A stretch of DNA of 50,034 nt from a virus: positions 1 to 50,034 of the IMG/VR virus record IMGVR_UViG_3300043466_003213, one strand, 5' to 3'. The translations under genes were made by a program, and so were the position numbers. The first letter of the stretch is position 1. Each line of letters starts with the position of its first letter. The notes below the pieces were generated by a model. The model was given only the letters and a program-made list of their open reading frames with translations. It was not told the origin of the DNA and did no database searches. This document shows positions 31,838 to 50,023 of the stretch, in pieces.

Positions 31838-32075
31838 CTTGCTTATACATTAGAGCTAAATTGTCTAAAGCTTTCCAAAGAGCTGGCCACTCTTCGCGGT
31901 GCTTACGCATGACATGGTCATGGTACTGTTCAACTCTGCCTTTGTCATTTATTGCTTTAATAATTTGACGAGCAGCTTCTTCTAAATTGCTATTTCTCTT
32001 CTTTAAAAAGAAATTGTTAATCCAAGCTTCAACAAGTTGAGCTTCAATGTCTTTTTCAGTTCTACGCCTGAACAT
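31821..32075 (-). CDS. Small charged protein of unknown function
   Basis: 84 residues from ATG 32075 (MFRRRTEKDIEAQLVEAWIN), chosen because it leaves a 14-bp overlap with the upstream gene. In-frame starts at 32126 and 32219 would overlap it much more and have no better ribosome site. Mostly helical and charged (NSNLEEAARQIIKAINDKG, HVMRKHREEWPALWKALDNL). No family recognised. Confidence 0.55.
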   Translation of the reverse strand: MFRRRTEKDIEAQLVEAWINNFFLKKRNSNLEEAARQIIKAINDKGRVEQYHDHVMRKHREEWPALWKALDNLALMYKQDDKQN

Positions 32076-32541
32076 CTGACGCTCGCTGAATGTGTCTTTG
32101 AACTCCGTAGTATAGCGGTCCAGCATTAGAAATGCCAAGACCTTTTGCAATAATAGAAAGTGATACGCCGTTTTCCTGGTATTCAACAGCAAGTTGTTCG
32201 TGGTACTTATGTGTCCCAAGTTCGCGTGCCTGACGGACGCGCTCTACTGCTGCGTCTGCTTCTTCTGGAGTTAGCTTTTTTCGCGCGCCTTTATTGTTTA
32301 CTGAGGGTACTTCAGACATAAAGATGCGACGACGGAGCCCTGAGTAAGAAACTTCAAGCTCTCGTGCAAGCCCGATTAGACTTCCTTTTTTACCTGAAAA
32401 CTCTACAAGCAACCGTGTGTATTCTTGGCTTGCCTGATGTGCAGGGGTATTTTGGCTTTTTGCGCCATACGCCTTTTGTGCAAGAGAAATCAAAGGTCGC
32501 ATTTTTTCTGCGTATTCTTTGATAGTGTCTTCGTTCTTCAT
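32062..32541 (-). CDS. HTH DNA-binding protein
   Basis: 159 residues. Two HTH-like segments are visible: SGKKGSLIGLARELEVSYSGLRRRIF (about 49-74) and ENGVSLSIIAKGLGISNAGPLYY (about 122-144), flanking a charged helix. It is the first gene of the leftward small-gene operon, and a perfect 7-bp inverted repeat overlaps its -10 region, suggesting autoregulation. It could also be a small-terminase-like protein, but nothing else supports that. Confidence 0.65.
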   Translation of the reverse strand: MKNEDTIKEYAEKMRPLISLAQKAYGAKSQNTPAHQASQEYTRLLVEFSGKKGSLIGLARELEVSYSGLRRRIFMSEVPSVNNKGARKKLTPEEADAAVERVRQARELGTHKYHEQLAVEYQENGVSLSIIAKGLGISNAGPLYYGVQRHIQRASDVQA

Positions 32542-40075: not shown

Positions 40076-40850
40076 ATCAAACCTCAATCCTGACCGTGAC
40101 CGCTTCCTCGAGACGGTCCGATCACATCTCGGCTACAAAACTCGACCTTCCGGCCTGAGCGAGTTTGCAGTGCAGACGGGCTACAAAGGCGAGGCTATTC
40201 CTTGGTCCGGTGCGTTTCTAGATGTCTGCGCTCGTGATTCAAATGTATTCATGCCGGCATGCATTTACACACCGTCCGGCCTGGCGGAGTTTTCTGCAGA
40301 CGGACGGGTTGTTTCTACACCCGAACCAGGCGACATTGTTTTTTACTCGTTCCCGACGGCTGAACAATTTGGGATGCCCCATTGCGGCGTGGTAGCCAGC
40401 GCAGACGAGTTCGAGCAGACGGGCATGTTTTCTGCGATCGAAGCTCAAGTCAATTCAGGCCTGCCGAAGGCGTCACAAAGCAAGACGGGCATCTTTGAGA
40501 GAGTTCGCTGGAAATACGAAGTTATTGCGTTTGTTCGTCCAGATTTTTCACGCAGGCCTGCTATAGAAAAACAAAAAGAGCAGACGGACAAGGTTTTGAT
40601 CAAGCTCCGAAGCGTGCAGCCTGGTAGGCAGAACTCGAGCGTGCAGACGGTACAGAAAGCTCTGGCTCAAGTTGCCGGCTTGAAAAATGAAAACCCGACT
40701 GTGTTTGACGAAGCAACTCAGCTCGCGTACTCGAGGTGGCAGCGACAGATTGGTTTCGTGTACCCTGACTGTACTGGAGTACCGGATCGAGCAAGCTTGA
40801 GATTACTGGGAAAAATTTCCGGAATGTTCAGTGCAGATTCTGAAAACTAA
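40053..40850 (+). CDS. CHAP-like protein with the catalytic Cys position occupied by Ser
   Basis: 265 residues from ATG 40053, with AGGA 8 nt upstream; ATG 40044 is also possible. The order RFLETVRSHLGYKT ... PWSGAFLDVCARD ... PGDIVFYSF ... HCGVV follows the phage CHAP amidase/peptidase domain, in which PWC is expected: here W51-S52. H110 is retained. Residues 190-265 look like a peptidoglycan-binding-type domain (SVQTVQKALAQVAGL). It may be an inactive wall-binding protein or use Ser or C59. The DNA carries several copies of the GGCCTG/CAGACGG repeat. Confidence 0.65.
   Translation: MTIFKKTKSNLNPDRDRFLETVRSHLGYKTRPSGLSEFAVQTGYKGEAIPWSGAFLDVCARDSNVFMPACIYTPSGLAEFSADGRVVSTPEPGDIVFYSFPTAEQFGMPHCGVVASADEFEQTGMFSAIEAQVNSGLPKASQSKTGIFERVRWKYEVIAFVRPDFSRRPAIEKQKEQTDKVLIKLRSVQPGRQNSSVQTVQKALAQVAGLKNENPTVFDEATQLAYSRWQRQIGFVYPDCTGVPDRASLRLLGKISGMFSADSEN
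40152..40179 (+). repeat. Bipartite repeat copy 1
   Basis: GGCCTG (40152-40157), 15 bp, CAGACGG (40173-40179), inside the CHAP-like gene. Confidence 0.6.
40278..40303 (+). repeat. Bipartite repeat copy 2
   Basis: GGCCTG (40278-40283), 13 bp, CAGACGG (40297-40303); the shortest spacer of the set. Confidence 0.55.
40458..40488 (+). repeat. Bipartite repeat copy 3, degenerate
   Basis: GGCCTG (40458-40463) and AAGACGG (40482-40488), one mismatch in the right half; a lone CAGACGG lies at 40416-40422. Confidence 0.5.
40555..40587 (+). repeat. Bipartite repeat copy 4
   Basis: GGCCTG (40555-40560), 20 bp, CAGACGG (40581-40587). CTGCT and AGCAG beside the halves could pair. Confidence 0.65.
40618..40650 (+). 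repeat. Bipartite repeat copy 5
   Basis: AGCCTG (40618-40623), 20 bp, CAGACGG (40644-40650). Confidence 0.6.
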
Positions 40851-40862
40851 AGCTGATATAAT
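40843..40862 (+). promoter_or_regulatory. Early promoter P1
   Basis: AAAACTAAAG at 40843, TATAAT at 40857-40862. TAA 40848-40850 is the stop codon of the CHAP-like gene. Drives the wHTH gene at 40893. Confidence 0.75.
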
Positions 40863-40892
40863 GTAACTAACCTCACTACATAAGGAGACACA

Positions 40893-41381
40893 ATGACAGT
40901 AGTAAATAAGCGCACTCGCGTTAACAGCCAAGAAAAGACACGCAACGCAGTCCTTGCGACGCTAAAGCTTTCAGATCAGCCTTTGGTACTTAATGAAGTC
41001 CAAGCTCTTCTCGCAATGCGCGGCGTATCACTTCACGTAACATACGTTAGTGAAATTCTTAAGCAGCTTATTCAAGCCGGCAAAATTTCCCAGCGGAATG
41101 AAACGCCAGCCGAGCGAGTTGTTCGTTTCGGCAGACACGAGCCACGCGGCGCACATTTTAAAGCAGTGTACTTCTGGGGCGAGCCTGGCAAAGTTCCAGC
41201 ACGCACAAAAGTAAGCAACATACACATGACGGGTCGGATAGCAAAAAAGACACGCAGGCCTGCTAAGGCAGCTCGAGTGCAGACGGGCACTAAAATCACT
41301 GCCCGCGAAAACTTGAGTCTTATGACGCGTGTTGCTGAGCTTGAAGCTCAGATTGCTGAGATGCGCAAAATTATTGGCTAG
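40893..41381 (+). CDS. Winged-HTH DNA-binding protein
   Basis: 162 residues, with AAGGAG upstream. Residues 15-65 form a winged HTH (NAVLATLKLSDQPLVLNEVQALLAMRG ... YVSEILKQLIQAGKISQ). A basic linker follows (KKTRRPAKAARVQTGTK), then a C-terminal coiled coil (LMTRVAELEAQIAEMRKIIG) suited to oligomerisation. It is the first gene of the repeated-promoter region and is flanked and interrupted by bipartite repeat copies, so it is the best local candidate to bind one of the two repeated motifs. Confidence 0.75.
   Translation: MTVVNKRTRVNSQEKTRNAVLATLKLSDQPLVLNEVQALLAMRGVSLHVTYVSEILKQLIQAGKISQRNETPAERVVRFGRHEPRGAHFKAVYFWGEPGKVPARTKVSNIHMTGRIAKKTRRPAKAARVQTGTKITARENLSLMTRVAELEAQIAEMRKIIG
41257..41286 (+). 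repeat. Bipartite repeat copy 6
   Basis: GGCCTG (41257-41262), 17 bp, CAGACGG (41280-41286); encodes RPAKAARVQTG of the wHTH protein. Confidence 0.65.
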
Positions 41382-41389
41382 CGAACGCA

Positions 41390-41420
41390 GGCCTGCCAGG
41401 GAGCTTCCAAAAGCAGACGG
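41390..41420 (+). repeat. Bipartite repeat copy 7
   Basis: GGCCTG (41390-41395), 18 bp, CAGACGG (41414-41420), intergenic. The spacer holds GGGAGCTTCC, able to form a small stem. Confidence 0.7.
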
Positions 41421-41422
41421 AC

Positions 41423-41454
41423 AGCCTGCTAGGGGGCTCCCTAAAAGCAGACGG
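41423..41454 (+). repeat. Bipartite repeat copy 8
   Basis: AGCCTG (41423-41428), 19 bp, CAGACGG (41448-41454), directly after copy 7. The spacer AGGGGGCTCCCT forms a stem, and CTGCT/AGCAG could close it. Confidence 0.7.
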
Positions 41455-41470
41455 GTCGCTCTTGAGTTGT

Positions 41471-41476
41471 GATAAC
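41471..41476 (+). promoter_or_regulatory. Possible leaderless promoter
   Basis: GATAAC preceded by GAGTTGT, resembling the early promoter core without its AAAACTAAAG half; it ends 8 nt before the GTG at 41485. No Shine-Dalgarno site is seen. Confidence 0.4.
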
Positions 41477-41484
41477 GTGAACAC

Positions 41485-41748
41485 GTGATTCATCTTGCGC
41501 TGTACGTTGTTGAGGACGTCGAGGACGCTGCGCTCGCAGAGCGAAACGAGATCTTCGAGTTTGTCATTGATGGATCAGAATGCGAAAACTGCGGAATGGT
41601 GATTGGCCCATCGCTTGATGCATTCTTCCCATGCGTTGTGATCGTTGATACAGACGAAAAACTCGATGTTGATAGCTGGGCAATTTGCCTAGACTGTGCT
41701 GCACCTTTGATGTATCCCAATGAATGGGTTCTCAACCTCGAGCTGTAG
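41485..41748 (+). CDS. Small acidic zinc-binding protein
   Basis: 87 residues, GTG start. Cys pairs CENCGMVIG and CLDCAAP probably hold one Zn in a ribbon; the rest is acidic beta structure (FFPCVVIVDTDEKLDVDSWA). No family recognised. First small gene after the two intergenic bipartite repeats. Confidence 0.65.
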   Translation: MIHLALYVVEDVEDAALAERNEIFEFVIDGSECENCGMVIGPSLDAFFPCVVIVDTDEKLDVDSWAICLDCAAPLMYPNEWVLNLEL

Positions 41749-41753
41749 AGTAC

Positions 41754-41773
41754 AAAACTAAAGTTGTTATAAT
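41754..41773 (+). promoter_or_regulatory. Early promoter P2 (leaderless type)
   Basis: AAAACTAAAG at 41754, TATAAT at 41768-41773; the ATG at 41780 is only 6 nt past the -10, at the expected start of transcription. Confidence 0.8.
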
Positions 41774-41779
41774 GATTCC

Positions 41780-41986
41780 ATGCAGCCAAACATTAATCAT
41801 CACGCCAACATTCATACAACGCTCGTTACACCTGCGAAGTCTTTCACATGTGACATCGAAGGCGAATTCCGAGTAGTCTGCACCTGCGGAGTGCTCGGCA
41901 AGAACGTCGTCTTTGCCAGCAAAGATCTCGCAGAAACTGCGGCGGCACAGCACCGTGAATTCGGTGTAAAACTAAAGTCGTTATAA
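41780..41986 (+). CDS. Small protein with CxC motif, probably from a leaderless mRNA
   Basis: 68 residues, MQPNINHHANIHTTLVTPAK onward. FTCDIEGEFRVVCTCGVLGK suggests a metal site, and VVFASKDLAETAAAQHREFG is a helix typical of small phage proteins that follow a CxC zinc knuckle. Its last five codons (KLKSL) and stop lie inside the next promoter, the TAA being part of TATAAT. No family recognised. Confidence 0.65.
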   Translation: MQPNINHHANIHTTLVTPAKSFTCDIEGEFRVVCTCGVLGKNVVFASKDLAETAAAQHREFGVKLKSL

Positions 41987-41987
41987 T
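41968..41987 (+). promoter_or_regulatory. Early promoter P3 (leaderless type)
   Basis: AAAACTAAAG at 41968, TATAAT at 41982-41987, with CG for the usual TG of the extended -10; ATG 41995 is 7 nt after it. It contains the stop codon of the upstream gene. Confidence 0.75.
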
Positions 41988-41994
41988 AGCTTCC

Positions 41995-42159
41995 ATGGGA
42001 CTTCTCCAAGCATACGCTATCTACAAATACGGCAAAAGCCGGCAGAAGAAGCGTCAACGTTTAGAAGAAGAGTACTGGGAAGAGATCTGCGATCTCTGTG
42101 GCTTCGCTCGTGCACAGCACGCTCGCGACGCTCAAGAGACGTGCCCAACCTACAGCTAA
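41995..42159 (+). CDS. 54-residue charged zinc-knuckle-like protein
   Basis: ATG 41995 to TAA 42159: MGLLQAYAIYKYGKSRQKKR, then QRLEEEYWEEICDLCGFARA, then QHARDAQETCPTYS. A basic amphipathic helix is followed by CDLCG and a third Cys (ETCPTYS). The position between two copies of the promoter and the lack of a ribosome site point to leaderless translation. No family recognised. Confidence 0.65.
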   Translation: MGLLQAYAIYKYGKSRQKKRQRLEEEYWEEICDLCGFARAQHARDAQETCPTYS

Positions 42160-42177
42160 AACTAAAGTTGTTATAAT
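42158..42177 (+). promoter_or_regulatory. Early promoter P4
   Basis: AAAACTAAAG at 42158, TATAAT at 42172-42177. An ATG (42184) lies at the predicted transcription start, and a second in-frame ATG (42226) has the AAAGGAC ribosome site. Confidence 0.8.
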
Positions 42178-42225
42178 GATCTCATGCCGCAAGGCACAAC
42201 CTACAAAAAACGAAAGGACAATCCA

Positions 42226-42633
42226 ATGAGAAAACTCACTACTATCGAGGTGCATGGCGCTAAGATCGAGATCATGCCACGCGTCTACAGCGTTCACGAT
42301 CGACGCTCCGCGTACTCACAAGCTCCACGAATGTACGTCAGCGTTGCAGACGAGACTTTGTTTGACAACCTTGCCAATCGCAAGCGTCGTCCTTATAACG
42401 TCTACAAGACACTGATTCACGCGAGTGGCATCTCTGAGATTCTCGATCTCAGCCGCTTGAGCTGGTCCCAATACGCTGGGTGCACCTGCCCCTGCTCGCC
42501 GGGATTCATTCTCAATCGTCAAACACTCCGGTTCGAAGACGAAGTCTTTTTGAACTTTGATGTTTGGGTGACTCTCGAGTCTGCTCCTTCAGTTGATGAG
42601 CGAAAGGCGCCCCGCGTTCTCGCGGGCGTCTAA
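42226..42633 (+). CDS. Small protein of unknown function
   Basis: 135 residues from ATG 42226 (MRKLTTIEVHGAKIEIMPRV), preceded by the leader CGAAAGGACAATCCA shared with neighbouring genes. The in-frame ATG at 42184 would add MPQGTTYKKRKDNP and could be used from the leaderless end. One region has clustered Cys (YAGCTCPCSPGFIL). Beta-rich; no family recognised. Confidence 0.65.
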   Translation: MRKLTTIEVHGAKIEIMPRVYSVHDRRSAYSQAPRMYVSVADETLFDNLANRKRRPYNVYKTLIHASGISEILDLSRLSWSQYAGCTCPCSPGFILNRQTLRFEDEVFLNFDVWVTLESAPSVDERKAPRVLAGV

Positions 42634-42637
42634 GCTC

Positions 42638-42657
42638 AAAACTAAAGTTTATATAAT
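42638..42657 (+). promoter_or_regulatory. Early promoter P5
   Basis: AAAACTAAAG at 42638, TATAAT at 42652-42657; leader with CCAACCTACGAAAGGACA before the ATG at 42687. Confidence 0.8.
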
Positions 42658-42686
42658 AATCTCACCAACCTACGAAAGGACATATC

Positions 42687-42914
42687 ATGTCAACAGCAAC
42701 TTCAATCGACTCTCACGTCAGAGTCAAGGGCATCACTCCCAATGTGAAAATTATTGACTGGGGCAGTCGCATTACGCTTCGCATCGAAGTCGGCGATGCC
42801 AGCATGACCTGGTACCTCAACCCGCTCACAGACGAAGCAATTGGTGACTACACTCAGCGTGTCATCGACGCGCTCGGTGAAGTCAAAATTGACTTGGCCT
42901 CCGCCGAAAACTAA
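42687..42914 (+). CDS. Small acidic protein of unknown function
   Basis: 75 residues, AAAGGAC ribosome site. MSTATSIDSHVRVKGITPNV, IIDWGSRITLRIEVGDASMTWYL and a C-terminal helix (ALGEVKIDLASAEN). Beta-strand-rich and acidic. Its stop TAA is part of the following promoter. No family recognised. Confidence 0.65.
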   Translation: MSTATSIDSHVRVKGITPNVKIIDWGSRITLRIEVGDASMTWYLNPLTDEAIGDYTQRVIDALGEVKIDLASAEN

Positions 42915-42926
42915 AATTGTTATAAT
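42907..42926 (+). promoter_or_regulatory. Early promoter P6
   Basis: AAAACTAAAA at 42907, TATAAT at 42921-42926; TAA 42912-42914 ends the upstream gene. Drives the gene at 42958. Confidence 0.8.
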
Positions 42927-42957
42927 CATTTCACCAACTACAAAAGGACAACCTACA

Positions 42958-43356
42958 ATGTTTCAACACGCAACAATCACACACCGAGATCGCAAAGTCA
43001 CGATGGCGTTCGATGGCCCAGTGCTCCCACAAGAAAAGGACGACATTGACGTCTGGCACGAGCGTGTCAAGGTGTCATGCTCACACAACAAAGACAAGAA
43101 AGTCTACGAGGCGCATGTGTCTTGGTGCAAGGCATCACAACGTAATGGCTTCGCAATGGAGCAGACTGCGATCTTTACTGATCCGCACATTCTGATCTCT
43201 CGTGAGCCTGCGGCTCGCTTCAATGAAAACAAATTTGCAACTTTTTGTGCGCAGGTTCGATTGCTTTGCGCAGCTGCAGCAGCAGATCAGAATAATGTCA
43301 GCGCCGCAGCTGAACTCCTGCGTAAGGCAGAGAGCTACAACCTCGTGAAAAACTAA
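42958..43356 (+). CDS. Small protein of unknown function
   Basis: 132 residues from ATG 42958 (MFQHATITHRDRKVTMAFDG), with AAAGGAC upstream; a longer frame from 42841 overlaps the previous gene. The middle has HVSWCKASQRNGFAMEQTAIF and the C-terminus is an Ala-rich helix (CAQVRLLCAAAAADQNNVSAAAELLRKAE). Its stop lies inside promoter P7. No family recognised. Confidence 0.65.
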   Translation: MFQHATITHRDRKVTMAFDGPVLPQEKDDIDVWHERVKVSCSHNKDKKVYEAHVSWCKASQRNGFAMEQTAIFTDPHILISREPAARFNENKFATFCAQVRLLCAAAAADQNNVSAAAELLRKAESYNLVKN

Positions 43357-43368
43357 AGTTGTTATAAT
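43349..43368 (+). promoter_or_regulatory. Early promoter P7
   Basis: AAAACTAAAG at 43349, TATAAT at 43363-43368; supplies the stop codon TAA 43354-43356 of the upstream gene. Confidence 0.8.
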
Positions 43369-43390
43369 AATTCCATAACGAAAGGACAAA

Positions 43391-43657
43391 ATGAGCTATC
43401 AATTTATTTATGACGAAGAAGCGGTAATCCAAGACGCTGACATCGAAATGGCGCACGCCATCGCGCGAGGCAACTACCTTGCGGCCCTCGAGCGTCGCGG
43501 CATCTGCGTGCACGATAGCGTCGTGGGCGTTTCCGCCACAGGCGAGATCTTCTACCCTGGACAGGTCGGCCTTGTTGGTGACCAGCAGCGATGCCAGGGC
43601 TGTGGAGTAGTTTTCGAAAGCTTCGAAGACTGGTGCGACACAACCAGGAATCTCTAA
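43391..43657 (+). CDS. Small zinc-binding protein
   Basis: 88 residues, AAAGGAC ribosome site. An acidic N-terminal helix (DADIEMAHAIARGNYLAALERRG) is followed by ICVHDSVVG, a strand region, and CQGCGVVFESFEDWCDTT, which probably binds Zn. No family recognised. A stable hairpin follows the gene. Confidence 0.65.
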   Translation: MSYQFIYDEEAVIQDADIEMAHAIARGNYLAALERRGICVHDSVVGVSATGEIFYPGQVGLVGDQQRCQGCGVVFESFEDWCDTTRNL

Positions 43658-43669
43658 GCGGTGAGGTCT

Positions 43670-43692
43670 GCCGGCACCGAAATGGTGTCGGC
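43670..43692 (+). terminator. Hairpin before promoter P8
   Basis: GCCGGCACC (43670-43678) and GGTGTCGGC (43684-43692) pair with one G-U and a GAAAT loop. It probably separates the transcript from the next promoter unit. Confidence 0.6.
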
Positions 43693-43704
43693 GTGGCCCG
43701 CCTG

Positions 43705-43724
43705 AAAACTAAAGTTGTTATAAT
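43705..43724 (+). promoter_or_regulatory. Early promoter P8
   Basis: AAAACTAAAG at 43705, TATAAT at 43719-43724; leader with CTACTACAAAAGGACA before ATG 43755. Confidence 0.8.
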
Positions 43725-43754
43725 GATCTTACACCTACTACAAAAGGACAAAAA

Positions 43755-43946
43755 ATGACACACGCACTTGACGAAGTTATCTTCGAAAGCAAACTCACAG
43801 TCGGCGGTCTCGTCGACCTTATCAACTACATGGGCGACGACTCCGAAGACGTCATCATTCCTGAAGACCTTCGCATGATTCTTGAGACACGTCTCTCAAA
43901 CGCGGTACTTCAAGAAGTCTCAAGCTTTATCGAAGACTACTTCTAA
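43755..43946 (+). CDS. Small acidic helical protein of unknown function
   Basis: 63 residues, AAAGGAC ribosome site. MTHALDEVIFESKLTVGGLV, then an acidic DLINYMGDDSEDVIIPEDLR and a C-terminal helix (MILETRLSNAVLQEVSSFIEDYF). The next gene lacks its own promoter copy, so the two are probably on one mRNA. No family recognised. Confidence 0.65.
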   Translation: MTHALDEVIFESKLTVGGLVDLINYMGDDSEDVIIPEDLRMILETRLSNAVLQEVSSFIEDYF

Positions 43947-43992
43947 ACTAATACCTAATACACACAAATACGTACAGCAAAAGGACAAAATA

Positions 43993-44157
43993 ATGGAAAC
44001 AGCAAATAAAAAATACGTGGTAATTCACCTTCGCATAGACCAACAAATACCAGAAGACAAAGTTGACGAAACTATCAATCAATACATCGACGTACTTTCG
44101 CGCGCCGGTGGCGATTTGACGTGGAACTGTTGTGACTGGGACACGTTCGACGTCTAA
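43993..44157 (+). CDS. 54-residue protein of unknown function
   Basis: ATG 43993 (METANKKYVVIHLRIDQQIP), with AAAAGGAC upstream; the longer frame from 43882 overlaps the previous gene and is rejected. It ends GDLTWNCCDWDTFDV. It is the only small gene in this stretch without an upstream copy of the promoter core, so it is probably translated from the P8 transcript. Confidence 0.65.
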   Translation: METANKKYVVIHLRIDQQIPEDKVDETINQYIDVLSRAGGDLTWNCCDWDTFDV

Positions 44158-44176
44158 AAACTAAAGTTGTTATAAT
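44157..44176 (+). promoter_or_regulatory. Early promoter P9
   Basis: AAAACTAAAG at 44157, TATAAT at 44171-44176; leader with CACTACGAAAGGACACATC before ATG 44207. Confidence 0.8.
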
Positions 44177-44206
44177 AATCTTACACCCACTACGAAAGGA
44201 CACATC

Positions 44207-44578
44207 ATGGGAGACAGAGCAGTAATCGGATTCCAAAAGAGCAAGGAAGACATTCCAGTCTTTCTTTATGCACACTGGGGCGGCAGCGACAGATACGTCG
44301 ATGCGCAGCGCGCAGTCGAGGCAGCACGTCCTCGCTGGGACGACCCAGCCTACGCAACCCGGATTGGAATCTCGCAAATTGTCGAGAACTACTGGGCTGA
44401 GGAAACTGGGTTCGGAATCAGCGCCGGACACGACTCATTCGCACAGCCAGACTATGACGATGTCATTCTGATTAGCTGGGACGAGCGAGAGGTCTATGTC
44501 GTAAGTGCAGGCGACTCGCAGCACGTCACAGCGACGTTTTCATTCGAGCAGTTTACAACTATGCTCGCGATGAATTGA
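44207..44578 (+). CDS. Conserved-looking phage protein of unknown function
   Basis: 123 residues. MGDRAVIGFQKSKEDIPVFL with YAHWGGSDRYVDAQRAVEAA resembles a family of small actinophage proteins that begin MG(D/N)RA and carry an HW-G motif; the function is unknown. The middle has ENYWAEETGFGISAG and an acidic end (DYDDVILISWDEREVYVV). The fold is likely alpha/beta. Confidence 0.7.
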   Translation: MGDRAVIGFQKSKEDIPVFLYAHWGGSDRYVDAQRAVEAARPRWDDPAYATRIGISQIVENYWAEETGFGISAGHDSFAQPDYDDVILISWDEREVYVVSAGDSQHVTATFSFEQFTTMLAMN

Positions 44579-44597
44579 AAACTAAAGTTGTTATAAT
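44578..44597 (+). promoter_or_regulatory. Early promoter P10
   Basis: AAAACTAAAG at 44578, TATAAT at 44592-44597; leader with CCCGAAAGGACACATC before ATG 44630. Confidence 0.8.
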
Positions 44598-44629
44598 AAT
44601 CTTATCAACCTAACCCGAAAGGACACATC

Positions 44630-44953
44630 ATGGCCACCATGACAAAAACCACAACGACAGTTTCAACAGAGACTTTCACCGTACTAGACCCTTCAGCAGA
44701 AGCGCTGATTGCTCAGTTCAATGACGCGAAAGCCGCGATCAAAGCAGCTGAAGCACTGAAGCAAGAAGCTGAAGCCAAGCTTCGTGAAATGCTCGCCGGG
44801 CAAGACGTCGGCGTAATCAATGGCGTCGAGCGCGTAAAAGTTCAGCATCGCAATCTGACCAAGGTCGATCGTGAAATGCTGAAGCTCGCGTTCCCTGAAG
44901 CGCACGAAGCAACGCTAGTCGTCTCGAGTTACACAGTTCTTCAAACGAAGTAA
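44630..44953 (+). CDS. Coiled-coil protein, resembles recombination-associated phage proteins
   Basis: 107 residues. The helix ALIAQFNDAKAAIKAAEALK and EAEAKLREMLAG, followed by DVGVINGVERVKVQHRNLTK, resembles small proteins found beside YqaJ-type phage exonucleases (helix pair then a beta hairpin). No exonuclease gene is in this window, so the link is only a pattern match. Confidence 0.6.
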   Translation: MATMTKTTTTVSTETFTVLDPSAEALIAQFNDAKAAIKAAEALKQEAEAKLREMLAGQDVGVINGVERVKVQHRNLTKVDREMLKLAFPEAHEATLVVSSYTVLQTK

Positions 44954-45177
44954 CTCGAGCAAGAACTGGGTGGCCAGCCCTTGGCCAGGATATTACAAGG
45001 GCTGGCTAGCCGCAGCGGTGCGAGTTGTCTCGCTAAGTAAGGCACCTGCCACGCCAAGAGCATATCCTTCGGGGTCACTGCCAAGTCGCAAGCGCAGATC
45101 GTTAGCAGCCGCTGAAACTCGCAAAACTAAAGTTGTTATAATGACAACATAACCTACCACAAAGGACAACCTACAAA
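44954..45177 (+). ncRNA. 224-bp gene-poor stretch with a structured RNA
   Basis: GCCAGCCCTTG (44973-44983) pairs perfectly with CAAGGGCTGGC (44996-45006) around a 12-nt loop. More GC-rich sequence follows up to the next promoter, with possible short stems. The only ORF covering it (44970-45152) has no ribosome site and implausible composition. It may be an extended terminator, a stable 3' leader or a small RNA. Confidence 0.4.
45123..45142 (+). promoter_or_regulatory. Early promoter P11
   Basis: AAAACTAAAG at 45123, TATAAT at 45137-45142; leader with CCACAAAGGACAACC before ATG 45178. Confidence 0.8.
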
Positions 45178-45345
45178 ATGACAAACAAACAAAAAAACTC
45201 ATCATCTTTTGGATTCTCGGTGCATCTCGAGTTTAGAAAAGTTACTGGCTCAGTGACGCGGGTTCGGAGACTTCGTCTCGTGCGCTTTAGCTCACTCAGG
45301 TTGCCAAGACTGCGCGGCTCCAATGCTGCTACCAGTCTTGTGTAG
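45178..45345 (+). CDS. 55-residue basic protein
   Basis: ATG 45178 to TAG 45345: MTNKQKNSSSFGFSVHLEFR, then KVTGSVTRVRRLRLVRFSSL and RLPRLRGSNAATSLV. The second half is rich in Arg, Val and Leu, which could be a nucleic-acid or membrane-active peptide. It has its own promoter copy and the shared AAAGGAC leader, which is the main reason to call it. No family recognised. Confidence 0.6.
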   Translation: MTNKQKNSSSFGFSVHLEFRKVTGSVTRVRRLRLVRFSSLRLPRLRGSNAATSLV

Positions 45346-45354
45346 CAAGAATCT

Positions 45355-45374
45355 AAAACTAAAGTTTGTATAAT
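45355..45374 (+). promoter_or_regulatory. Early promoter P12
   Basis: AAAACTAAAG at 45355, TATAAT at 45369-45374; leader with CCTATAAAAGGACA before ATG 45410. Confidence 0.8.
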
Positions 45375-45409
45375 AGCTACTACCAACCTATAAAAGGACA
45401 ACCTACAAA

Positions 45410-45904
45410 ATGACAACCACAAATTCTTCAACCACAATCGCCGGCAATGCGATTTACCTCGAGCTTGCTAAGCCAAACATAACAACTCAGATGCTTATCA
45501 TGCCGGAAGGCACATCGTCTTCTCACAAGACAGTACCAATGACAGTCTATCGTCGCCGAATTACAGCACATGCTCCTCGTAGGACATGGAAAGCTGTAAG
45601 TGCGCCGACCACTGCTCGTCACCTTATTTCTTCAGCTCTTGACACAGAGCCAGCAGTCGCAATAAATGCAGTGCTTACTCCACTTCATCCGCTGTTTCGC
45701 TCAGTCGCGGCTAACGAGTACGTTCTCTGTAGACAACCAATCTACGTAGAAGTCACTCCTGAAGACTTGGAGCTGTGCATTACTGCAAAGACTCCATACA
45801 AAGTTCTCGGAAGAGTGATGAAAGTTCGCAAGTCTCTTGGATTCCCCAAAGAGATTATCCACGAACTATTGCCGCCAACTCCAGCCGCAACTTCAACTTT
45901 CTAA
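45410..45904 (+). CDS. Protein of unknown function
   Basis: 164 residues with the shared AAAAGGAC leader. Beta-rich N-terminal part (IYLELAKPNITTQMLIMPEG), then a segment with TVYRRRITAHAPRRTWKAVS, and a C-terminal helix with Lys/Arg (PYKVLGRVMKVRKSLGFPKE). No motif allows a name. Its stop is inside promoter P13, directly before the MoxR-like gene. Confidence 0.65.
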   Translation: MTTTNSSTTIAGNAIYLELAKPNITTQMLIMPEGTSSSHKTVPMTVYRRRITAHAPRRTWKAVSAPTTARHLISSALDTEPAVAINAVLTPLHPLFRSVAANEYVLCRQPIYVEVTPEDLELCITAKTPYKVLGRVMKVRKSLGFPKEIIHELLPPTPAATSTF

Positions 45905-45916
45905 AGTTGTTATAAT
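45897..45916 (+). promoter_or_regulatory. Early promoter P13
   Basis: The upstream half is TTTCTAAAG rather than AAAACTAAAG, with TATAAT at 45911-45916; TAA 45902-45904 ends the upstream gene. Drives the MoxR-like gene. Confidence 0.7.
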
Positions 45917-45951
45917 AATTCCACAACCTACTATAAAAGGACACAAACACA

Positions 45952-46956
45952 ATGTTAGTTAACCAACCTCTCTCCGCTGAAGCAGAAAAGATTCACGCAG
46001 GGCTATCGTCAGTTCTTGCTGACTTCGCTGCTCAATCATTTAGCTCTGAAGCTGCAGATAGAATGAACGCGTTAGTCAGCGATAGCGGGCGCGCAACAGT
46101 TCGTAAAGCAGCAGAAAAGAAAAAGATTGCAATGGTAGAAACAGAAGCTCTTACTGGTGAATCACAATACTCTCGGCCAAATGGCGAAAAGTATTACTCG
46201 CGTGCATGGGGCGAGCACAACGATGTGCAAGTACTTCTCAATGCTCGAAGCATCAATGCGTATGTACTTCTGTACGGTGCGCCTGGCTGCGGAAAGACTG
46301 CAGCTATAGAAGCTGCGTTCGCCGATCAGCCCGGTGGCTTGTACACAGTGCTTGGCTCTGGAGATACTGAAGTATCCGACCTCGTTGGTGGGTACGTCCA
46401 GACACCCAGTGGTGGATTCCTCTGGGAGGATGGACCTCTTGTCAAGGCAGCTGAAAAAGGCGGAGTGCTTCTCATTGACGAAGTCGGTCTCATCGATCCC
46501 AAGGTTCTGTCAATCGTGTACGGCCTCATGGATGGTCGCCGTGAGTACACAGTCACAGCGAACCCAGAACGCGGAACTGTCAAAGCAGCAGATGGGTTCT
46601 ACGTTATTGCGGCAACGAACCCGAACGCGCCAGGAGTACGCTTATCTGAAGCGTTGCTTTCTCGCTTTGCGATTCACGCTGAAATGACTACAGACTGGGC
46701 GCTGGCTCGCAAGCTTGGCTGCCCAGTCCCTGTTGTTACTGCAGCGCAGAATCTCAGCAAGAAGCAGCAATCTGCAGAAGTGTCCTGGGCGCCACAAATG
46801 CGTGAGCTTCTCGCATTCCGAGATCTTTCCAAGACGTTCGGCACAAAGTTTGCAATCGCAAACCTGCTGGCTGCTGCTCCAGAAATTGATCGGCCGGTCG
46901 TGGCAGATGTCTTCACCCGAGTCTTCGGTGAGGAATGCCGCCCAGCAAAGATCTAA
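45952..46956 (+). CDS. MoxR/CbbQ-like AAA+ ATPase
   Basis: 334 residues. Walker A GAPGCGKT (109-116), Walker B GVLLIDEVG (171-179, D176-E177), sensor ATNPNAPG (about 221-228) and the arginine-finger-type SEALLSRF (R238) are in place. A helical N-terminus precedes the AAA+ core. MoxR/CbbQ/NorQ-type ATPases remodel partner enzymes together with a VWA protein; the next gene encodes such a partner. In cyanophages a related gene has been called cobS. The target is unknown here. Confidence 0.88.
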   Translation: MLVNQPLSAEAEKIHAGLSSVLADFAAQSFSSEAADRMNALVSDSGRATVRKAAEKKKIAMVETEALTGESQYSRPNGEKYYSRAWGEHNDVQVLLNARSINAYVLLYGAPGCGKTAAIEAAFADQPGGLYTVLGSGDTEVSDLVGGYVQTPSGGFLWEDGPLVKAAEKGGVLLIDEVGLIDPKVLSIVYGLMDGRREYTVTANPERGTVKAADGFYVIAATNPNAPGVRLSEALLSRFAIHAEMTTDWALARKLGCPVPVVTAAQNLSKKQQSAEVSWAPQMRELLAFRDLSKTFGTKFAIANLLAAAPEIDRPVVADVFTRVFGEECRPAKI

Positions 46957-46967
46957 TGGTCTGCTCG

Positions 46968-46997
46968 GGGGTCAGCCTTGTAGGTTGGGCTGGCCCC
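46968..46997 (+). terminator. Hairpin after the MoxR-like gene
   Basis: GGGGTCAGCC (46968-46977) pairs with GGCTGGCCCC (46988-46997), one T-G, 10-nt loop, followed by TTT. Confidence 0.65.
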
Positions 46998-47005
46998 TTT
47001 GAGCG

Positions 47006-47025
47006 AAAACTAAAGTTTATATAAT
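47006..47025 (+). promoter_or_regulatory. Early promoter P14
   Basis: AAAACTAAAG at 47006, TATAAT at 47020-47025; leader CATGAAAGGACAAACGAC before ATG 47057. It allows the VWA partner to be expressed independently of the ATPase. Confidence 0.75.
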
Positions 47026-47056
47026 GAACCTATACCCACATGAAAGGACAAACGAC

Positions 47057-48862
47057 ATGGGACACATCAAATACAAAAGCGAAACTCGCGCCGAAGCCAC
47101 AGACCCAAGGTGGTATGGAGTTGGCTCGCAGATTGGGCAACTCGTCAACCTGCTCAGCGATCGCTCAGATCTTATTGCGTACGTCGGCCCAGGTGCCGGC
47201 GGTGCAGCACCAGCGTGCTACACTCCTGCTACAGCAGAAGTTGAAATCAACGTTGACGTCGCTTTCGGCAAGAACGTCAACCCAGTAGATATTGGCGACA
47301 TCCGCGAGCGTGACACTCAGTTTATGTGGCCAAAAGCAACTGGAGCTATTTTCCATGAAGCACTTCATGCTCGCTACTCTACGTGGAACATTGCAAAAGC
47401 TGCAGATGAACTCGAGCAAGACGAATTCATGGCTTTGATTCTTCTTGAGGAAGGACGCATTGAAGCGTTCGGCGTTGGTCAGTTCCCAGAAAATTCTGGG
47501 TTTCTTCGCGCTGCTGCTCTCGAGATTGTGCTCGCAGATCTTTCAGAAGAATTTCTGACAGAGTCAGACACACAAATGGCAGCTCGTCTTGCGGCACTTA
47601 CGCTTGCTCGAGTGGATGCCGGCAGTCTTGAAGACAGCGACTGCGCTTCTCTCGCTGAAACAGTCGAGAACAAGCTCGGTACAGAAAGACTAGAAGCGCT
47701 TCGTCAGATTTGGCTTGCGGTGCAAATGCACAGCAATCACTATGATGTTTCAGCTCTGTACCCACTTGCTCGCGAATGGGCGCGCATTGTAAAAGATGCA
47801 GCAGAAGAGAATGGCGATGCACAGCAAGGCGAAGGCGAGCCCGGTGGCATGTCAACACCTGGTGGCTCATCAGGCGGCCCAAGCGAGTTCATGAAAGACT
47901 TGCTTGACGCTCTTGAAGAAGCAGCAGGCAACGCAGTGATTGGAGCGTTCGACCAACTTAGCGAGCAGCAAGAAATTGAACAGTGGACTAAGGAAGCGAA
48001 AGATCGTGCAAGCGAAGCAAGACAAGAACAAGAGCACAAAGAAGTAGCAAGCGACGTTTTTGGCAAAGGCACTGGGCCAATGCCTGAAACTGACACACGC
48101 TCTACTAAAATTGTTTCTCGAGATGCAACGCCGGCTGAACGATCTGCAGCAGTCAAGATCGCGCAGATGCTCGACAAAGCAAAGTATCGCGAGCGCGACG
48201 AAATTGACATCAAGTCAGTTTTGCCGCCGGGACGCTTACGCACTCGTGCAGTCATGCAAGGCGCAGCTCTCAAGTCAAAAGGTGTTATGACCCAGACAGA
48301 GCCGTGGCGTCGCACAGTGCGCAAGCACACTGACGACCCAACGCTCAGCATTGGCGTCATGGTGGACATTAGCGGATCAATGGGCGAAGCGATGGAGCCA
48401 ATGGCAACGACAGCGTGGGTCATGAGCGAAGCGGTGCGACGCATTCAAGGGCGTGCCGCAATGGTGTACTACGGTCAAGATGTTTTCCCAACATTGAAGC
48501 CTGGTCAGCACTTGACGCAAGTCGATGTCTACACAGCGCCTGACGGAACTGAAAAGTTCAACAAGGCGTTCATGGCGCTTAACGGTGGCATGAATCTGCT
48601 GCACGGCAGCGGTGCACGGTTGCTTGTCGTCGTGAGCGACGGGTGCTACACAAGCGCCGAACGAATTGCGGCGAAGCGATGGGTTGCTGAATGCTCGCGC
48701 AACGGCGTCGGTGTGCTATGGCTTACCTTTGACAACGGGTCGGATGTCAAGTCAATTACGAACGGCACCAATGCGGTTGTGTTGACGGGTCTGTCCAGTC
48801 CAGAGCTTGTAGCAATGGAGATCGGTTCGTCGGCCGCACGGGCGCTCTCAGTCGCTCAATAA
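47057..48862 (+). CDS. VWA-domain protein with HExxH motif (MoxR partner, CobT-like)
   Basis: 601 residues from ATG 47057 (MGHIKYKSETRAEATDPRWY), with GAAAGGAC upstream; the longer frame from 47024 runs through the promoter. Residues 98-105 hold HEALH (H100, E101, H104), with a downstream EE-x-R (131-134), a gluzincin-like zinc site. A central acidic/Gly-rich linker (about 255-285) and a coiled, charged segment follow. The C-terminal VWA domain has a MIDAS DISGSMG (about 436-442) and VVVSDG. VWA partners of MoxR-type ATPases, and CobT, have this general order. Confidence 0.85.
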   Translation: MGHIKYKSETRAEATDPRWYGVGSQIGQLVNLLSDRSDLIAYVGPGAGGAAPACYTPATAEVEINVDVAFGKNVNPVDIGDIRERDTQFMWPKATGAIFHEALHARYSTWNIAKAADELEQDEFMALILLEEGRIEAFGVGQFPENSGFLRAAALEIVLADLSEEFLTESDTQMAARLAALTLARVDAGSLEDSDCASLAETVENKLGTERLEALRQIWLAVQMHSNHYDVSALYPLAREWARIVKDAAEENGDAQQGEGEPGGMSTPGGSSGGPSEFMKDLLDALEEAAGNAVIGAFDQLSEQQEIEQWTKEAKDRASEARQEQEHKEVASDVFGKGTGPMPETDTRSTKIVSRDATPAERSAAVKIAQMLDKAKYRERDEIDIKSVLPPGRLRTRAVMQGAALKSKGVMTQTEPWRRTVRKHTDDPTLSIGVMVDISGSMGEAMEPMATTAWVMSEAVRRIQGRAAMVYYGQDVFPTLKPGQHLTQVDVYTAPDGTEKFNKAFMALNGGMNLLHGSGARLLVVVSDGCYTSAERIAAKRWVAECSRNGVGVLWLTFDNGSDVKSITNGTNAVVLTGLSSPELVAMEIGSSAARALSVAQ

Positions 48863-48866
48863 AATC

Positions 48867-48915
48867 TTACTCCCGGGACAGCGTGTTACTTGTCCTTTCC
48901 GCGTCCCGGGAGTAA
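48867..48915 (+). terminator. 13-bp perfect hairpin after the VWA gene
   Basis: TTACTCCCGGGAC (48867-48879) and GTCCCGGGAGTAA (48903-48915) are exact complements, with a 23-nt loop that contains CTTGTCC. No U-run follows. The two best-preserved bipartite repeats begin 18 bp later. Confidence 0.75.
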
Positions 48916-48932
48916 CCTTCTCAAAGACTTCA

Positions 48933-48962
48933 GGCCTGCCCTAGGAGTACGTATGCAGACGG
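48933..48962 (+). repeat. Bipartite repeat copy 9
   Basis: GGCCTG (48933-48938), 17 bp, CAGACGG (48956-48962), intergenic. Right side continues ACATGCTTTTCAGCGT, shared with copy 10. Confidence 0.75.
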
Positions 48963-48980
48963 ACATGCTTTTCAGCGTCA

Positions 48981-49010
48981 GGCCTGCCATAGGGCCAGAC
49001 ATGCAGACGG
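48981..49010 (+). repeat. Bipartite repeat copy 10
   Basis: GGCCTG (48981-48986), 17 bp, CAGACGG (49004-49010), 48 bp downstream of copy 9, then GCACGCTTTC. Confidence 0.75.
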
Positions 49011-49015
49011 GCACG

Positions 49016-49035
49016 CTTTCTAAAGATTGTATAAT
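49016..49035 (+). promoter_or_regulatory. Early promoter P15, divergent variant
   Basis: TTTCTAAAG, then TATAAT at 49030-49035; drives the gene at 49068, whose leader has CAGGGGAGACACG in place of AAAGGAC. Confidence 0.65.
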
Positions 49036-49067
49036 AGAATTACAACCACAAACACAGGGGAGACACG

Positions 49068-49283
49068 ATGGCAGCAAGACCAACGATCGACGATGCAGTA
49101 AACGCGCTACAGCAGATCGCAGAACTCGTACTTGAGCTCGGAATCGACGAAGTAGCGAAGCAGGCGAATCTAAAACCAAGACAAGTTCGCAAGTTCGTGA
49201 ACGATGTGCTCACGTCTAAAAACTCTGAGATTCGACTAATCTCAGCAGCAGTCGCTTCTATGAAGGAGCTGAACAAAAACTAA
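49068..49283 (+). CDS. Small HTH-like protein
   Basis: 71 residues. ELGIDEVAKQANLKPRQVRK with FVNDVLTSKN is a helix-turn-helix-like segment (A-K-x-A-N-L-K-x-R-x-V), within an otherwise helical, moderately charged protein. It could be a regulator. It lies directly downstream of two bipartite repeats and a variant promoter, and its stop is part of promoter P16. Confidence 0.65.
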   Translation: MAARPTIDDAVNALQQIAELVLELGIDEVAKQANLKPRQVRKFVNDVLTSKNSEIRLISAAVASMKELNKN

Positions 49284-49295
49284 AATTGTTATAAT
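49276..49295 (+). promoter_or_regulatory. Early promoter P16
   Basis: AAAACTAAAA at 49276, TATAAT at 49290-49295; TAA 49281-49283 ends the upstream gene. Drives ATG 49328. Confidence 0.8.
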
Positions 49296-49327
49296 AGTCT
49301 CAGCAGCCCATGACGAAAGGACACATA

Positions 49328-49498
49328 ATGGACAAGCCAAACATCACATCCACCTATATTCATCACGCAGATTTTGATGAGCCAGTTCCCTTGAATTACA
49401 GAGACCCGATCCATTACGCGATCAGCGTGCTCTGCCTTGAAGGCAAGGCTCCAGAGTTCAAGATTCTGGTGGGCCCCCAAGTCGTGCTCCCGCGCTAA
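49328..49498 (+). CDS. 56-residue protein of unknown function
   Basis: ATG 49328 with ACGAAAGGACACATA upstream. MDKPNITSTYIHHADFDEPV followed by PLNYRDPIHYAISVLCLEGK and a short beta end (FKILVGPQVVLPR). One Cys; no motif recognised. A longer frame from 49310 adds residues upstream of the ribosome site and is rejected. Confidence 0.6.
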   Translation: MDKPNITSTYIHHADFDEPVPLNYRDPIHYAISVLCLEGKAPEFKILVGPQVVLPR

Positions 49499-49512
49499 GC
49501 GGGGCACAGCCC

Positions 49513-49532
49513 AAAACTAAAATTGTTATAAT
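49513..49532 (+). promoter_or_regulatory. Early promoter P17, without an evident gene
   Basis: AAAACTAAAA at 49513, TATAAT at 49527-49532. No gene with the usual leader follows before the next promoter, 121 bp on. Confidence 0.75.
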
Positions 49533-49538
49533 GATCTC

Positions 49539-49633
49539 ACCAGCCAGCCACAAGGGCAGGCCCTAATAAATAGCCGTGAGAGGGCGCTCGGCGGACCTGA
49601 CCTAAGGTCCAAACAAAATGCCCAATGGAATCA
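49539..49633 (+). ncRNA. Possible small RNA or micro-ORF between two promoters
   Basis: The predicted transcript from promoter P17 contains GGACCT/AGGTCC (49593-49598, 49605-49610) and a 7-codon frame MPNGIKN (ATG 49618) whose stop is in the next promoter. There is no AAAGGAC leader. A short RNA, a decoy promoter or a peptide of 7 residues are all possible. Confidence 0.35.
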
Positions 49634-49653
49634 AAAACTAAAGATGTTATAAT
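49634..49653 (+). promoter_or_regulatory. Early promoter P18
   Basis: AAAACTAAAG at 49634, TATAAT at 49648-49653; leader with GGTAACGACGAAAGGACA before ATG 49701. Confidence 0.8.
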
Positions 49654-49700
49654 GAATTTATCAGCCACGATGGCTGGTAACGACGAAAGGACAAGTCAAC

Positions 49701-49952
49701 ATGAACAAGAAATGGTCACTCCTCAAGAGCAGCGACATCGGCCCAATGGGACGCGGTCAGAATGGCAAGAAAAAGGTGTACGAAGTCACCCTTGATGGCC
49801 AAACAGTCACCTTCGAATGGGGTATGGCTGAGATGACCCGCCGTCAGCGCCAGGTTCGCACCTTCAGCACCTCACAGGCCGCCATCAACGCGGCTTACGA
49901 AAAAGTGGGCGCAAAGCTGGATCGCGGATACTCGGTCGCCTACGCGGTCTAA
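49701..49952 (+). CDS. WGR-domain-like protein
   Basis: 83 residues, consisting of little else than a WGR-type domain: KKVYEVTLDGQTVTFEWGMA, RQRQVRTFSTSQAAINAAYE and KVGAKLDRGYSVAYAV, with WGM at the WGR position. WGR domains in PARP enzymes and bacterial MolR-like proteins bind DNA ends or RNA. A stand-alone phage WGR could bind DNA ends or modulate a host enzyme. AAAGGAC leader present. Confidence 0.7.
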   Translation: MNKKWSLLKSSDIGPMGRGQNGKKKVYEVTLDGQTVTFEWGMAEMTRRQRQVRTFSTSQAAINAAYEKVGAKLDRGYSVAYAV

Positions 49953-49963
49953 GCGGTCAAGGA

Positions 49964-49990
49964 GCCGGGCCGGCGAGAGCCGGACCCGGC
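49964..49990 (+). terminator. GC-rich hairpin after the WGR gene
   Basis: GCCGGG-CCGGC (49964-49974), GAGA loop, GCCGG-A-CCCGGC (49979-49990): two stems separated by a single A bulge. It ends the gene before the last promoter. Confidence 0.65.
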
Positions 49991-50003
49991 CCCGCCACTC
50001 CGC

Positions 50004-50023
50004 AAAACTAAAGATGTTATAAT
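50004..50023 (+). promoter_or_regulatory. Early promoter P19
   Basis: AAAACTAAAG at 50004, TATAAT at 50018-50023; its gene lies beyond the window edge. Confidence 0.75.

Follow-up and report, generated by a model that had tools for sequence, protein, structure and literature searches.

An array of predicted promoters in which a phage-specific box abuts a host-type -10 element in a group of lake phages

The subject of this study is a promoter-like element that recurs ahead of the genes in one module of IMG/VR virus record IMGVR_UViG_3300043466_003213, a stretch of 50,034 bp with undefined contig ends that we refer to, at its full length, as the window. The element is a 20-mer, AAAACTAAAGTTGTTATAAT, made up of a 14-bp box directly followed by the hexamer TATAAT. 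A search of the whole record at up to 3 mismatches returned 17 matches, all on the plus strand and all between 40843 and 50023, where 0.01 were expected by chance and 100 shuffled sequences gave none. Two further copies (45897-45916 and 49016-49035) start with CTTT instead of AAAA but keep CTAAAG and TATAAT in register and bring the total to 19. The box begins exactly 14 bp before TATAAT in all 17 full copies, and both CTTT copies preserve this register, so that the about 20 copies with a fixed 14-bp offset described in an earlier sequence-only reading of this DNA, and the conservation of their upstream block at fixed spacing from TATAAT, were borne out. No copy was found on the opposite strand or outside 40843-50023 in the record, and a position weight matrix scan of the window added one weak match at 38.2 kb. 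The sequences lying 5' of the box have nothing in common among the window copies.

The first copy (40843-40862, variant CTGATATAAT) precedes a gene for a winged-helix-like protein (40893-41381). Copies 2 (41754-41773) and 3 (41968-41987) are followed by putative leaderless starts at ATG 41780 and ATG 41995, and copy 4 (42158-42177) either by a leaderless ATG at 6 nt (42184) or by an ATG at 42226 that is led by a Shine-Dalgarno (SD) sequence. Copies 5 (42638-42657), 6 (42907-42926, overlapping the end of the preceding gene), 7 (43349-43368), and 8 (43705-43724) stand ahead of genes at 42687-42914, 42958-43356, 43391-43657, and 43755-43946, the last of which is followed by a gene at 43993-44157 that, like the gene at 41485, has no promoter copy of its own. 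Next come copies 9 (44157-44176), 10 (44578-44597), 11 (45123-45142), and 12 (45355-45374) with genes at 44207-44578, 44630-44953, 45178-45345, and 45410-45904. Copy 13 (45897-45916), a CTTTCTAAAG variant that the 3-mismatch search had missed, precedes the gene of a MoxR-type ATPase (45952-46956), and copy 14 (47006-47025) that of a VWA/CoxE-like protein (47057-48862). This ATPase and VWA/CoxE-like pair (45952-48862) is conserved throughout the phage group and served as our marker. Copy 15 (49016-49035), the other CTTTCTAAAG variant, lies ahead of a small helix-turn-helix (HTH)-like gene (49068-49283), copy 16 (49276-49295) ahead of an SD-led open reading frame (ORF; 49328-49498), and copy 18 (49634-49653) ahead of a gene at 49701-49952, while copy 19 (50004-50023) sits at the contig edge. 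Copy 17 (49513-49532) has no convincing ORF between itself and the next promoter; the stretch of about 100 nt behind it (49533-49634) folds at -31.7 kcal/mol, a value calculated without a shuffle control, and may form a structured transcript or small RNA.

A plausible ORF thus begins 6-47 nt downstream of 17 of the 19 copies, in agreement with the claim that nearly every gene of the region has a copy upstream. Three of these ORFs have their ATG 6-7 nt past TATAAT; at most other copies, the start codon follows after 22-47 nt and is preceded by a GAAAGGACA-type ribosome site. The proposal of many parallel short transcription units is likewise supported, with the promoters defined by sequence criteria. 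The end of the array at 50023 is the edge of the window rather than that of the array, which longer contigs of relatives extend by 17-30 kb.

The plus strand of the window also holds 12 occurrences of a different repeat, GCAGACGG(G/A)C, where 1.45 were expected; ten of them lie within 40172-41454 and 48955-49010. This repeat often stands 25-40 nt after a AGGCCTGC-like element and is also found inside coding sequence (endolysin and winged-helix gene). Strand-biased arrays of it are present in the relatives G010, G015, and G021 and absent from G003 and Actinomycetia phage DSL-LC01.

Searching with the protein sequence of the MoxR-type ATPase yielded 69 related loci, most of them on contigs that are fragments. 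The closest named record is DSL-LC01, a complete genome of 129,469 bp from a lake metagenome with 78% identity in this protein, and the more distant named relatives are Microbacterium phages such as Pumpernickel; at the nucleotide level, the window matched no named phage. The window belongs to a large uncultured phage with a probable actinobacterial host, the host prediction being one that exists for DSL-LC01 only. Twelve related phages carry a box of this kind, with 20-73 copies each on the main strand and nearly all of them inside a single module (0-3 in reversed controls), and the strand of the copies follows the orientation of the genes. In DSL-LC01, 34 copies are confined to 22.6-43.3 kb, from before the winged-helix gene to before the terminase, and the promoters at 3.4, 84.3, and 99.7 kb have no box; in G002, seven opposite-strand copies form a single cluster at 19.6-21.1 kb. 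Three protein families of the module, represented in the window at 44207-44578, 41995-42159, and 41485-41748, occur in 12, 10, and 12 of the 12 box-carrying phages compared with 0, 0, and 2 of 14 others, and they could be co-factors or module-specific effectors.

The copies of these 12 phages were pooled into a set of 575, in which 116 copies are followed, 5-8 nt past the -10 (nearly always 6 or 7), by a start codon that opens a reading frame, compared with 11 at a control offset of 13-16 nt. Leaderless mRNAs are common in actinobacteria, and together with the starts at 6-7 nt this places the +1 at the usual distance. By sequence criteria, the copies are therefore real promoters with a host-type TATAAT about 7 nt before +1. 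Sequence information in the pooled set is limited to the box (0.4-1.8 bits per position), the -10, and, to a weak degree, the beginning of the transcribed region, and it is near zero at the -35 position. TTGACA at 16-18 bp is not enriched either (39 matches against a chance expectation of about 67), which confirms on a larger set of relatives that a -35 box is missing, as the sequence-only reading had noted. Mycobacterial sigmaA promoters function with the -10 alone and show no -35 consensus (PMC6448022), so a missing -35 is the ordinary case there, needs no special factor in itself, and is less odd than that reading held. A promoter scanner run on the region performed at chance level since it demands a -35.

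The same reading had ascribed recognition to an extended -10 together with the upstream block, and the first part of this idea fits some of the phages only. TGn precedes the -10 in 13 of 20 copies in the window and in 29 of 35 in DSL-LC01, but in 0 of 68, 1 of 75, and 1 of 77 copies in three relatives that combine the same architecture with another box. We therefore rejected the extended -10 as a general basis and view the box, rather than TGn, as the common principle.

What differs between relatives is the sequence of this box. Comparison anchored on TATAAT revealed many relatives with 10-30 such promoters on one strand of the same module but with differing upstream blocks, and an expectation-maximization motif search agreed in finding the same design with different boxes: AAAACTAAAGTTgt in the window, GATTCTAAAGATGT in DSL-LC01, TTCTAAAGAAgt in L052 and L071, AATCTAGGGAtgg in L048/L049, aatCTaAGGAAtG in L055/L057, AACTnGGGAatG in L043, TTTCCAGAGTTta in L044, and GTTTCTAAAAGtGT in L060. 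A second group of relatives has solely CCTGATATAAT, and more distant ones carry either a canonical TTGACA-type -35 or a TGTCAG element within the spacer. The latter element is conserved in L103, L106, L088, and L101, two of which have a canonical-looking -35, so that phage-specific spacer boxes may extend beyond the present group; L095 and L098 repeat GTATCCACTTTTTTACT upstream of genes, unlike all other classes. Mapping the promoter classes onto the MoxR tree required at least 14 changes, and box distance was unrelated to MoxR or VWA protein distance (Mantel r 0.05 and 0.08, respectively), which indicates that the copies within one phage change together and independently of these genes.

The box is also tied to its -10. 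Strong box matches occurred 398 times at the exact spacing and 9 times elsewhere, the same number as in the reversed-sequence control, and such rigid spacing is more suggestive of an element that touches polymerase than of a free-standing operator or stoperator. A scan covering about 85,000 genomes of bacteria and archaea found 95 stretches; each of the 80 listed was a single copy, and none of them was labelled actinobacterial. Equal frequency of the motif in host DNA, named by the sequence-only reading as a possible refutation, was thus not seen among these 80. Sigma70_r2 (PF04542) was absent from the 18 phage records searched, of which two are complete, whereas ten genomes used as controls were positive and other sigma domains were not searched, and on these grounds we rejected a phage sigma factor. 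The core of the box is quasi-symmetric (CTnnAG), and covariation within phages around an axis 7.5 bp upstream of TATAAT was strong in a first set (z = 5.2, null maximum 3.5).

Fixed spacing from the -10, rarity in bacteria at large, the absence of Sigma70_r2, and copies that change together are read most economically as a phage-encoded reader that works with host polymerase, and the phage factor invoked by the sequence-only reading is plausible in this light. We give an even chance to a regulon that spans a module of small genes and whose promoters work in parallel, most of them serving one gene, by combining a host -10 with a 14-bp box read by a phage-encoded activator, each lineage having its own box. 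The -10 is of the type used by the host housekeeping sigma, with a predicted +1 about 7 nt downstream, and the box abuts it from about -26 to -13 in the place of the -35 and spacer. A phage-encoded DNA-binding protein would be made first, from a promoter without a box, and would then dock on the box beside RNA polymerase for joint activation of the array, in a role comparable to that of MotA in T4. Box and reader would change together, giving each lineage its specific box sequence. It is from the geometry that we infer an activator rather than a repressor.

Which protein might read the box was approached through three candidate regulators. The winged-helix-like protein (40893-41381, plus strand), which has a C-terminal coiled coil, is the product of the first module gene and occurs in 27 of 31 relative records; it was rejected since, for all its near-universal presence, its divergence shows no relation to that of the box (r = -0.08 and -0.03). 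The small HTH-like protein of 71 amino acids (49068-49283, plus strand) is present in 15 of the 31 relative records, for the most part box-carrying ones, and was rejected because this co-occurrence is not matched by any relation between its divergence and the box (r = 0.02); L104/L011 share the box of the window but have a very different small-HTH helix, which also counts against it. The leading candidate is a tandem-HTH protein of 159 amino acids encoded on the minus strand at 32065-32541 and conserved across the wider phage group. It comprises two HTH units, its AlphaFold2 model is all-helical (mean pLDDT 84.8), and Pumpernickel gp204 is a homologue. The gene has a TATAAT promoter without a box in 8 of 8 phages, the protein diverges in step with box distance (r = 0.52, p = 0.008, n = 10), and its second HTH ends in QRH, NRH, or QRY in 10 of 10 box-carrying phages but not in seven relatives without a box. 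One polypeptide bearing two DNA-binding domains would fit a box that is quasi-symmetric only, and the repressor of cluster A phages offers a precedent (PMC9283540). Structure searches with models of the tandem-HTH protein gave no PDB match at E below 0.3, and the Pfam and PHROG matches of the HTH candidates were weak or under curated cut-offs. Since around 43 protein families were tested against box distance and relatedness was not fully controlled, we regard the assignment of this protein as a lead only.

Several observations weigh against a phage-encoded activator, or against this candidate for it. Mycobacterial RNA polymerase can start from the -10 alone, so that activation is not strictly needed (PMC6448022). 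The tandem-HTH protein is the best of those roughly 43 families, with p values of 0.002-0.008 that fail strict correction, and it is present in relatives without a box and in Microbacterium phage Pumpernickel, while the box-carrying G002, G003, G006, G013, and G021, fragments though they are, have no or weak matches to it. Finally, box symmetry, which would favour a reader that is dimeric or tandem, is suggestive at best: in the full set, the z for covariation about the same axis falls to 3.65, with the 95% limit at 3.33, and is exceeded by a non-symmetric pair (-11,-8), and we therefore do not rely on perfect dyad symmetry.

A more far-reaching form of this reading can be put forward tentatively, namely a previously undescribed appropriation of sigma in which a phage protein, seated in the spacer against the -10, would take the place of the -35 contacts as well as those of the extended -10, at 20-70 promoters in each genome. 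Diversification of the pair of box and reader between related phages would then provide each of them with a promoter code of its own, used on a type of host polymerase that they share.

The strongest competitor, though we think it unlikely, is that host polymerase itself recognizes the box, through sigma region 3/2.4, the beta' zipper, or RbpA/CarD, and that the copies are simply strong early promoters. Uniformity within a phage would then stem from duplication or conversion of promoter cassettes and differences between phages from differing hosts. Fixed spacing from the -10, the lack of free boxes, and the lack of a detected phage sigma-70 would all be expected on this account, promoters with only a -10 are normal in mycobacteria, and a box-free CCTGnTATAAT is the common form in other relatives and also elsewhere in DSL-LC01. 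Boxes as unlike each other as TTTCCAGAGTTTa, AATCTAGGGATTg, and AAAACTAAAGTTgt are nevertheless hard to reconcile with one conserved polymerase, the TGn contact is lost in some phages, and none of the bacterial genomes listed (80 of the 95 stretches) has the motif in multiple copies.

Distinctly less probable is that the box serves as an operator in the spacer from which a phage repressor blocks host polymerase, shutting the module off later during infection or while the phage is resident (immunity); the operators would differ by lineage, as they do in heteroimmune groups. The box does overlap polymerase contacts, its CTnnAG core is quasi-symmetric with covariation about the 7.5-bp axis in part of the data, a small HTH-like protein accompanies it in most phages, and repressors with many sites exist in cluster A phages (PMC9283540). 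Boxes away from the -10 or at relaxed spacing are not above chance, however, unlike the stoperators of cluster A, the lack of a multi-copy match among the bacterial genomes listed argues against lysogeny, and divergence of the small HTH-like protein does not track the box. That the repeat acts mainly as DNA (in recombination or packaging) or after initiation, with an incidental match to the -10, is very improbable: the compactness of the module and its many identical direct repeats would fit, but the leaderless starts at 6-7 nt, the SD-led genes 22-47 nt downstream, a strand that follows gene orientation, and a -10 at nearly every box do not.

A reader encoded by the phage thus remains our preferred explanation for a design of gene control that runs across a group of lake phages, with dozens of near-identical promoters in which a phage-specific box is set against a host-type -10. 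A non-exhaustive search of the open-access literature found no earlier description of it. Since the box is replaced as a set between relatives, at 20-70 sites at once, these phages offer a testable system for the co-evolution of regulators and their sites, and the array allows transcription starts to be predicted without RNA data. If the reader is confirmed, orthogonal pairs of promoter and regulator for actinobacteria may become possible.

Known systems share individual features with this array. Actinobacterial sigmaA promoters, for which a -10 is sufficient, lack a -35 consensus and have ANNNT shortly before the transcription start (PMC6448022); the missing -35 and the leaderless starts are common ground, but that study reports no host promoters with a conserved 14-bp box ahead of the -10. 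The SAS/ESAS elements of cluster K mycobacteriophages are short repeats before the starts of many non-structural genes (PMC3203893) and, like the copies described here, lie ahead of genes mostly in one orientation and are specific to a phage group. Their 13-mer GGGATAGGAGCCC is located 3-7 bp from the start codon, however, whereas our promoters are of unrelated sequence and lie 22-47 nt upstream or are leaderless. Cluster A mycobacteriophages carry at least 20 copies per genome of a 13-mer that correlates with the direction of transcription, and their repressor binds an asymmetric site as a monomer with two DNA-binding domains (PMC9283540), an arrangement that resembles our tandem-HTH candidate. 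Their stoperators are also found in intergenic gaps and stop elongation, in contrast to the present boxes, which occur without a -10 no more often than by chance (9 versus 9).

A functional parallel is with the nearly 60 middle promoters of phage T4, at which a host -10 is combined with a MotA box replacing the -35 and TGn is present in about half (PMC2988021). The shared features are the large number of sites and the pairing of a host -10 with a phage box that takes the place of the -35. The MotA box is centred at -30, 12 ± 1 bp from the -10, whereas the box described here (-26 to -13) abuts the -10 without slack, is confined to one gene block with about one promoter per gene, and varies between relatives. 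No MotA/AsiA homologue was identified, though no targeted search for MotA or AsiA was made. Membership in the MotA/AsiA class is not shown, and it is in the working of its design, a host -10 joined to a phage box at many sites, that the array would be T4-like.

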